DNA of 40,143 bases, taken from positions 1 to 40,143 of the forward strand of contig VGET01000005.1 in NCBI GenBank assembly GCA_016869195.1, written 5' to 3'. The notes under the pieces were generated by a model. It worked only from the letters and a program-made list of their open reading frames with translations. It was not told the DNA's origin and made no database searches. The translations under genes and the position numbers were made by a program. Below are positions 17,128 to 20,261 of this stretch, in pieces. Source of the DNA: Alphaproteobacteria bacterium. GTDB taxonomy: Bacteria > Pseudomonadota > Alphaproteobacteria > UBA828. How positions within the stretch are numbered: position 1 is the stretch's first letter; the number at the start of each line of letters is the position of its first letter.

Positions 17128-18873
17128 TCAGTTGGCCTGCCGGCGCAGAAAGGCGGGAATCTCGAGCGGATCCTCGGCCTGTTGCGGTGCTGGCCGGGAT
17201 TGTGGCTCGGCAGCTGCCCGCGGAGCCGCCGGAGCACGGCTCGGCGTTCCCAGCACCGGCTCCCGCACCGCTGGCTCTGGCCCGCGCGGTGCCGTCGCCT
17301 GAACCGGATTCTCATCGATCTCGCGCCGGCTGGTTGCGCCGGTAATCCGCTGGAACAGGCCAATCCCCCGCTGCTTCGACTGCTGCGCCTTGCCGGCGCT
17401 CAGAACGTCGGAAACCGCAACCGGGTCCGGCCGCTCCACCCGCGTCTCACGCAGGCCCGGCCGCGCCGGAGGTTCAACCGGAGGTGGCGGAACAAAGGAG
17501 GCACTGGCGGCGCTCCGGGCCGGGGCCTGAGCCGGCTCGGTCCGCCGTGCAGCCGGTTCGGCGGCGCGGGGCGCCACCTCGGGGGCACGGACCGGCGGCT
17601 CCAGCGGAAGCCGCGCATCGGCCTGGCGCGAAGCGGGCATGGGCGGAGCAACCGGCACCTCCATCCGCGGCGCCGGCGCGGGCTCGGGCATCGCGGCCGC
17701 TGCGGCGGTGTGCCCCGCCATCAGGCCGGCACTTGTCATGCCGCCACCAACCGCATAGGCAGCCGCAGGTGCCTGCATCGCTTCCGCCGAGGCCACGACC
17801 TGGCTCTCACGCTGCGCCACCGGCGCCAGCGATGCCGAGTTCGCGGCGCGACGCGGCGTCTGCCCCAGCACATGCACCTTGTCGGTGGTGGGAACCGGCT
17901 CACGCTCTTTCAGCGCGTCGATGCCCGTCGCGATCACCGCAACGCGAATCGAACCCTCGAGCTCTGGATCGAGACGCGCGCCGAAAATGACGTTCGCGGT
18001 TTCGTCCACTTCCTTGCAGATGCGGCTCGCTGCGAGATCAACCTCATGCAGTGTCATGTCGTGAGCGCCGGTGATGTTGATCAACACGCCGCGAGCGCCT
18101 TCGATCGACGCGTTGTCGAGCAGTGGATTGTTGATCGCGGCTTCGGCGGCTTCGATCGCGCGATTATCGCCCGTCGCTTCGCCGGTGCCCATCATCGCCT
18201 TGCCCATCTCTTCCATCACCGTACGCACATCGGCGAAGTCGAGATTGATCAGGCCGGGATTGACCATCAGGTCGGTGACGCCACGCACACCGGCGTGCAA
18301 CACGTCATCCGCCAATTTGAATGCATCCGCAAACGTTGTTCGCTCGTTCGCGATGCGGAACAAATTCTGGTTGGGGATAACTATGAGGGTATCTACATAT
18401 TTCTGAAGCTCGAGAATGCCCTGTTCGGCAAGCTTCATGCGATGGATGCCCTCGAACTGGAAGGGCTTCGTCACCACGCCGACCGTCAGAATCCCCTGTT
18501 CCTGCGCCGTTCGCGCAATCACGGGCGCGGCGCCCGTGCCGGTGCCACCGCCCATCCCGGCAGCGATAAACACCATGTTGTTGCCTTCGAGATAGCGCTG
18601 AATTTCGTTCACCGCTTCTTCAGCTGCGACCTTGCCGATGTCCGGGCGCGCGCCGGCGCCAAGACCGTGAGTGATGGTCGAGCCAAGTTGAATGCGATGC
18701 TCGGCAAGCGTTTGCTCCAGCGCTTGGGCGTCGGTGTTCGCGACGACGAACTCCACGCCCTCAAGCTTGCCGGCAATCATATTGTTGACCGCATTGCCGC
18801 CGGCGCCGCCGACGCCAATCACCGTGATGCGCGGTTTGCCTTCGCGGGGTTCCGGCTTGAATTCGATGGGCAT
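17128..18873 (-). CDS. ftsZ: Cell division protein FtsZ
   Basis: FtsZ is the tubulin-like GTPase that forms the division ring. The 581-residue product has the nucleotide-binding signature GGGTGTG (residues 108-114), with [15 protein letters not shown] near the N terminus. The synergy-loop residues in [11 protein letters not shown] (about 205-215) complete the GTPase site. A very long, low-complexity Ala/Pro/Arg-rich linker (about 320-565) follows. It ends in the conserved peptide [12 protein letters not shown], which binds FtsA and other partners. E. coli FtsZ is 383 residues; long linkers are typical of alphaproteobacteria. GGAGGT lies 4 nt before the ATG. The 104-bp upstream gap is the largest in the dcw cluster. 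Confidence 0.98.
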
Positions 18874-18977
18874 GCTGACCTCCAGGTCGGTGATACTTTT
18901 CGATTCGTATCGATTCGTCTATAGGCGATGCGATCGAGCGGTGGTCGCGACGAAAAATTTTTCGACTCGCGTTCGCA
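18874..18977 (-). promoter_or_regulatory. ftsA-ftsZ intergenic region, likely ftsZ promoter
   Basis: This is the only sizeable gap in the dcw cluster. It holds three GANTC sites (18902-18906, 18912-18916, 18964-18968). It also holds a 10-bp tandem direct repeat (CGATTCGTAT then CGATTCGTCT, 18901-18920). A -10-like TATAGA lies on the minus strand (18918-18923) and a perfect palindrome CGAAAAATTTTTCG at 18951-18964. No convincing -35 lies 17 bp from TATAGA. GANTC is the CcrM methylation site in alphaproteobacteria. In Caulobacter, ftsZ transcription depends on such sites. Confidence 0.5.
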
Positions 18978-20261
18978 TCAGAAGTTTTCTCTCAGCCAGT
19001 GGCTGATTCGTCCGAGACGCGTTTCAGGCCTTCGACGTGGATCGCGACGCACGCGTCGCGGCTGCGGGTTCGCTTGATTTTTTCCCGCGTAGACGAGCAG
19101 GCCCGCGCCGACCGCGTACTCAGGGCCAGTGGTCGATTGCGCGAGGCCGGGAATGGGGAGCGGGCGGGCGAGGCGGATCTGCTTTTCGAGCACTTGTCCC
19201 GCAAGCTCGCGGATGCCCTCGACCTGGCTTGCCCCGCCGGTGATCACGACTCGACGACCTGCCGCATCGGCAAAGCCCGATGAGTCGAGCCGGTCGCGCA
19301 CCAGCTCGAAGATCTCCTCGAGTCGCGGCCGGACGATGCCGACCAGGAGCGAGCGCGAAACCTGCATGCTGGTGGCGGGCGTGTCCTCGCCGAGTTGCGG
19401 CACCTCGATCGTCAATTGCGCGTCACGTGGCCCGCTGGTCGCGCTGGCGTAGAACTTCTTGACCTGCTCGGCGCTCGTGATCGGCGTTGAAAGGCCGCGC
19501 GCGATGTCGTTGGTGACGTGCCAGCCACCGATCGGGAACGACTCGGCGTGGACGAGTGCGCCGCCCGTGAACACGGCGAGGCTCGTCGTGCCGCCGCCCA
19601 TGTCGATCACGGTGACGCCAAGGTCGAGCTCGTCCTCGACCAGGCAGGCGAGGCCCGCGGCATAGCCCGAGATCACCGGTGCCGCGACATCGAACTCACA
19701 GCGGCGCATGCAGGTGATGAGATTGCGCAGTGCCCCATGCGCGACCGAGACGACATGGAGCCGAACGCCCAGGCGCCGCCCGGTCATGCCGCGTGGATTG
19801 CGGATGCCACGCGCGCCATCAAGCTCGTATTGAATAGGGATGGCGTGGATCGTGTCCCGGTCACCGGTGCGCATATTGGGCGCAAGCTCGTCGAACGCCC
19901 GCTGAATCACTGAATCATCGATCTCTTCACCGCCGAGAGAAATTGCGTTCTCGGTGTAGCGCGATTCGGGCGCGCCTCCGGAGAGACTCACATAGGCCTC
20001 ACGCGCCCGCACTTCCGCCATGCGCTCGGCGCGCTGTACCGCGCGGCGAATGGACTCTTCGGCGGCCGTCATGTCCGTGACGATGCCGGCCTTGAGTCCG
20101 CGCGCAACCTCGTGTCCGATACCAATGATTCGCAGGTCTTCCTGCCCCTCGCGCCGCGCGATGAAGCAGGTCACCTTGGTCGTCCCTACGTCGATTGCCG
20201 TGATCACCATGGTCTTCTTGCTGCGCCCTGTTCTAAGTCGTTCCCTGATCGGTCTTTGCAT
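18978..20261 (-). CDS. ftsA: Cell division protein FtsA
   Basis: FtsA is the actin-like ATPase that anchors FtsZ to the membrane. The 427-residue product has the phosphate-binding loops of the actin fold (AIDVGTTKVTCFIAR near the N terminus and VIDMGGGTTSLAVF in the middle) and the adenosine loop VVITGGASQVEG. It ends in the short amphipathic helix RISHWLRENF that targets the membrane. The ATG at 20261 gives a basic N-terminal extension and overlaps ftsQ by 29 bp. An ATG at 20210 (MVITAIDVGTT) is the alternative. Neither has a strong ribosome binding site, so coupling to ftsQ is likely. Confidence 0.96.
   Translation of the reverse strand: MQRPIRERLRTGRSKKTMVITAIDVGTTKVTCFIARREGQEDLRIIGIGHEVARGLKAGIVTDMTAAEESIRRAVQRAERMAEVRAREAYVSLSGGAPESRYTENAISLGGEEIDDSVIQRAFDELAPNMRTGDRDTIHAIPIQYELDGARGIRNPRGMTGRRLGVRLHVVSVAHGALRNLITCMRRCEFDVAAPVISGYAAGLACLVEDELDLGVTVIDMGGGTTSLAVFTGGALVHAESFPIGGWHVTNDIARGLSTPITSAEQVKKFYASATSGPRDAQLTIEVPQLGEDTPATSMQVSRSLLVGIVRPRLEEIFELVRDRLDSSGFADAAGRRVVITGGASQVEGIRELAGQVLEKQIRLARPLPIPGLAQSTTGPEYAVGAGLLVYAGKNQANPQPRRVRRDPRRRPETRLGRISHWLRENF

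Follow-up and report, generated by a model that had tools for sequence, protein, structure and literature searches.

Three GANTC sites between ftsA and ftsZ of an alphaproteobacterium are probably labile, and a related genus appears to have lost ccrM

The ftsA-ftsZ gap and its GANTC sites

The DNA analyzed here (the window, 40,143 nucleotides) is contig C5 of a 3.48-Mb assembly in 395 contigs with a completeness of 98.7%. On its reverse strand, ftsA is followed by ftsZ across a gap of 104 bp (18874-18977, GC 0.52). An earlier note on this DNA had seen three GANTC sites in the gap, and they are indeed present, at 18902, 18912, and 18964. The features of the region are as follows.

17128-18873, reverse strand: ftsZ, 581 aa (TIGR00065, 413 bits; Pfam Tubulin and FtsZ_C)
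18879-18883, reverse strand: GGAGG ribosome-binding site of ftsZ, from the alignment, retained across the family
18899-18918, reverse strand: 10-bp direct repeat ACGAATCGAT/ACGAATCGAA, read from the sequence, holding sites 1 and 2
18902-18906: GANTC site 1, GATTC (CGATTCG on the forward strand), at -33 relative to the ftsZ ATG
18912-18916: GANTC site 2, GATTC (CGATTCG on the forward strand), at -43 relative to the ftsZ ATG
18918-18923, reverse strand: possible -10-like TATAGA, read from the sequence, without a paired -35
18964-18968: GANTC site 3, GACTC on the forward strand (CGAGTCG on the reverse strand), at -95 relative to the ftsZ ATG
18978-20261, reverse strand: ftsA, 427 aa, C-terminus WLRENF and stop (TIGR01174, 350 bits)

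Each of the three gap sites fits YGAKTCG, the extended GcrA motif, sites 1 and 2 on the forward strand and site 3 on the reverse strand. Since sites 1 and 2 belong to one 10-bp direct repeat, the three sites are not independent and would reflect fewer than three events. A fourth GANTC is located at 19005, in the 3' end of ftsA just beyond the gap. No sigma-70 promoter-like site was recognized in the gap by scanning, and neither a DnaA box nor a CtrA site was found in it. The distal GANTC also lies beside a perfect 14-bp AT palindrome, CGAAAAATTTTTCG (18951-18964), which is missing from the same-genus relative.

Frequency of GANTC clusters in the genome

The expectation of about 0.4 GANTC for the gap, as given in the earlier note, agrees with the value of 0.39 from the composition of the gap itself, and at least three sites are expected with P = 0.007 (Poisson) or P = 0.0062 (shuffling). 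Against a background of 440 kb of stretches from the same assembly, 0.31% of 104-bp windows hold at least three GANTC. These form 28 clusters, six of them in the window and many in coding DNA, including one with seven GANTC within ftsA (19904-20131), and clusters of this density are common in the genome. At least three GANTC also occur in 2 of 71 roughly delimited intergenic gaps (60-150 bp). Three YGAKTCG motifs per 104 bp are rare, with five overlapping matches at four places in the 440 kb, and the motif fits only 26% of the GANTC sites in the source genome. Collectively, these values make the cluster only mildly unusual, given that it was spotted by eye within 40 kb.

In the same genome, a further intergenic gap (L112:15636-15775), between divergently read open reading frames, contains four GANTC, three of which are extended motifs. 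Furthermore, GANTC abounds in the ftsA of this genus, with 12 sites in the window (18978-20261) and 11 in the same-genus relative (L084) vs about 3 expected, and the other relatives tested have 0-6. That the whole ftsA-ftsZ stretch might be a GANTC-rich element preserved across the genus found only partial support, with no more than five ftsA positions common to both species.

CcrM and GcrA are encoded in the same assembly

The earlier note had proposed looking for ccrM and gcrA in the genome. CcrM (361 aa; L003:1423-2508) carries N6_N4_Mtase and RAMA domains and aligns end to end with Caulobacter CcrM (6pbd; 531 bits, E 1e-158), and its gene lies directly downstream of rnhB. GcrA is encoded on the reverse strand at L001:37-432 (Pfam GcrA, 107.5 bits), and both its N-terminal DNA-binding part and its C-terminal part match Caulobacter GcrA structures (7ye1). 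On the stricter, Caulobacter-tuned NCBIfam models, CcrM scores 625 (cut-off 830) and GcrA scores 92.5 (cut-off 280), both below the cut-off. With a full-length CcrM and a GcrA both encoded, the proposal does not fall for want of its machinery. Elsewhere in Alphaproteobacteria, GcrA orthologs bind GANTC in its methylated form (PMC3667746).

Because the genome encodes CcrM, the three gap sites are probably methylated. MipZ is the co-regulated partner in Caulobacter. A search with a MipZ model recognized no MipZ in the 98.7% complete assembly (G000); the only matches, on contigs C92 and C132 (L150 and L151), resemble Mrp and ParA proteins.

The sites are not conserved in the genus or the family

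To compare the locus, ftsA-ftsZ gaps were taken from genomes of the family and from named relatives. The same-genus relative (G012; L084, with a gap identical to that of L004) has an FtsZ that is 97% identical over residues 1-291. Its 99-bp gap contains no GANTC; the genus offers just this one other usable genome. In the alignment, the relative reads CAATC opposite the proximal site 1, one change from GANTC, and shows no counterpart of the direct repeat. Under the wider definition of -200 to +100 (PMC7987155), it has one site at -193, within ftsA. Across the 10 usable gaps of the family, this relative included, there are 4 GANTC in 1,026 bp vs 3.5 by shuffling (P = 0.46), and the sole position common to two gaps is -28, in two species of one genus (L090 and L091). 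Rhodospirillales-type relatives mostly have 0-1 GANTC in the gap. The conservation upstream of ftsZ on which the earlier proposal depended is therefore absent from the same-genus gap, and GANTC numbers across the family do not exceed chance.

Conservation has been used as the mark of GANTC function (PMC3708114, PMC3973325), since a single instance of the motif, even in its extended form, is a poor proxy for function (PMC7987155, PMC3973325). Judged by the gaps compared, the ftsZ locus fails this criterion for a functional GANTC site.

A genus of the same family without a recognizable ccrM

Genus g6 of the same family comprises eight genomes (G013-G020; L179-L185), six of which are at least 92% complete. 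A RAMA domain scored over the cut-off in none of the eight, which gave only distant methylase matches in the CcrM search, and gcrA is retained in all eight. Moreover, rnhB was found in seven of them, and ccrM lies beside it in none of the seven, yet the two genes are adjacent in G012 and G008. The ftsA-ftsZ gap is 11-15 bp in the six genomes that allowed the ftsZ start to be located. In Alphaproteobacteria, CcrM has been described as missing only from the Rickettsiales, the Magnetococcales, and one endosymbiont (PMC3973325). On gene content, this one genus appears to have lost ccrM but not gcrA or rnhB, which is more interesting than the ftsZ cluster. If true, the loss would allow the role of GcrA to be asked about in the absence of the methyl mark, and would thereby matter more.

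GANTC depletion was considered as a divider of CcrM-bearing and CcrM-lacking genera and was rejected. The observed/expected ratio of GANTC is 0.38-0.46 in g6 and 0.39-0.54 in CcrM-bearing GC-rich genomes; TCNGA, taken as a control, is likewise scarce, at 0.33-0.54 and 0.50-0.71 in g6 and CcrM-bearing genomes, respectively.

Origin and possible role of the sites

In Caulobacter crescentus, CcrM activates the ftsZ promoter by methylating a CGACTC site, so the premise of the earlier note is established (PMC3708114). The Caulobacter promoter and the window have in common a GANTC upstream of ftsZ and a genome with CcrM and GcrA. In contrast, close relatives of Caulobacter strictly retain its site, which works from between -35 and -10 (PMC3708114), whereas the sites of the window are absent from the same-genus relative and no promoter was recognized around them by the scan. 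The locus is better not classed among conserved Caulobacter-type CcrM-activated ftsZ promoters. It also resembles the rewiring of the GcrA/CcrM network in Caulobacterales, where GANTC sites before division genes are labile and ftsZ varies between genera; that rewiring is backed by ChIP-seq and RNA-seq (PMC7987155), and the window by sequence alone. That CcrM controls ftsZ in Caulobacter, and that such control is patchy across Alphaproteobacteria, is already known.

We consider it reasonably probable that the three sites are labile and methylatable, with no inherited function in ftsZ control. They would then be ordinary CcrM targets in a fast-changing spacer, most likely having arisen in the source species after its split from the sister species, sites 1 and 2 through one 10-bp duplication and site 3 through point changes. 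Given their absence from close relatives, the sites probably reflect an accident in this one species or a local change of very recent date, not conserved division control. The rarity of such clusters (0.3% per window, and four places in 440 kb for three extended motifs) counts against labile sites, as do the fit of all three to YGAKTCG and the presence of CcrM and GcrA. The motif fit and the two proteins suit the main rival, a species-specific rewiring, in which methylated GANTC recruits GcrA to a new ftsZ promoter that is coupled to replication as in Caulobacter. The RAMA-bearing CcrM matches over its full length, both terminal parts of GcrA match 7ye1, the AT-rich spacer offers a possible -10, and ftsZ control is known to change between close genera (PMC7987155). 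However, the sites are conserved neither in the genus nor in the family, the scan recognized no sigma-70 promoter, and the extended motif by itself is a poor proxy (PMC7987155). Moreover, if TATAGA, the sole hexamer resembling a -10, filled that role, sites 1 and 2 would lie downstream of it and not between -35 and -10. Such rewiring is conceivable but doubtful, and it seems a shade less likely still that ftsZ was put under CcrM/GcrA very recently, in a single species, by the 10-bp duplication and point changes.

An element of ftsZ inherited across the family, or across Alphaproteobacteria at large, appears extremely improbable. Caulobacterales are known to control ftsZ through CcrM/GcrA, Rhodobacterales have been suggested to do so (PMC3708114), and sphingomonads have a positionally conserved GANTC near -67, but these sites and those of the window differ in place. 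The same-genus relative has none, the family is at chance level, and one of its genera has no recognizable CcrM; the gap comparison, alignment, and shuffles largely refute inheritance. It is hardly more credible that the repeat and the palindrome bind another regulator, with GANTC incidental. Repeat copies spaced by one helical turn and a perfect 14-bp palindrome, all within a short spacer, would fit such a protein, but the gap shows neither a DnaA box nor a CtrA site, and the repeat and palindrome are not retained in the same-genus relative.

The suggestion of the earlier note, that replication-coupled methylation control of ftsZ may extend to this lineage, thus stands as far as the machinery and the fit to the extended motif are concerned; with no conservation in either rank, it is unsupported at the level of genus or family. 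If the control is real in the source species, it would represent a further lineage-specific gain of CcrM-ftsZ control, and a recent species-level gain would offer a snapshot of a core division gene being rewired, in a family of which another genus lacks a recognizable CcrM. The case also illustrates how a conspicuous group of motifs before ftsZ can be missing from a congeneric species.

Sphingomonad ftsZ gaps and record titles

Among 37 sphingomonad-type ftsZ gaps (from L023-L060, L074, and L082), 21 place a GANTC 64-71 bp ahead of the ATG, where shuffling gives 1.2 and at most 4. A DnaA-box match occurs in 19, vs 0.3 by shuffling, although the gaps are related and the shuffles therefore overstate the significance. 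This pattern makes Sphingomonadales a good candidate for conserved regulation of ftsZ by CcrM and DnaA.

Several records have titles at odds with the ftsZ found in them (L004, L007, L009, L019, L063, and L066). Records titled Marinimicrobia and Oceanobacillus carry an ftsZ of alphaproteobacterial type (the FtsZ tree leaves out L066), and the MAGs titled Rhizobium sp. Q54 fall on two separate branches of that tree.
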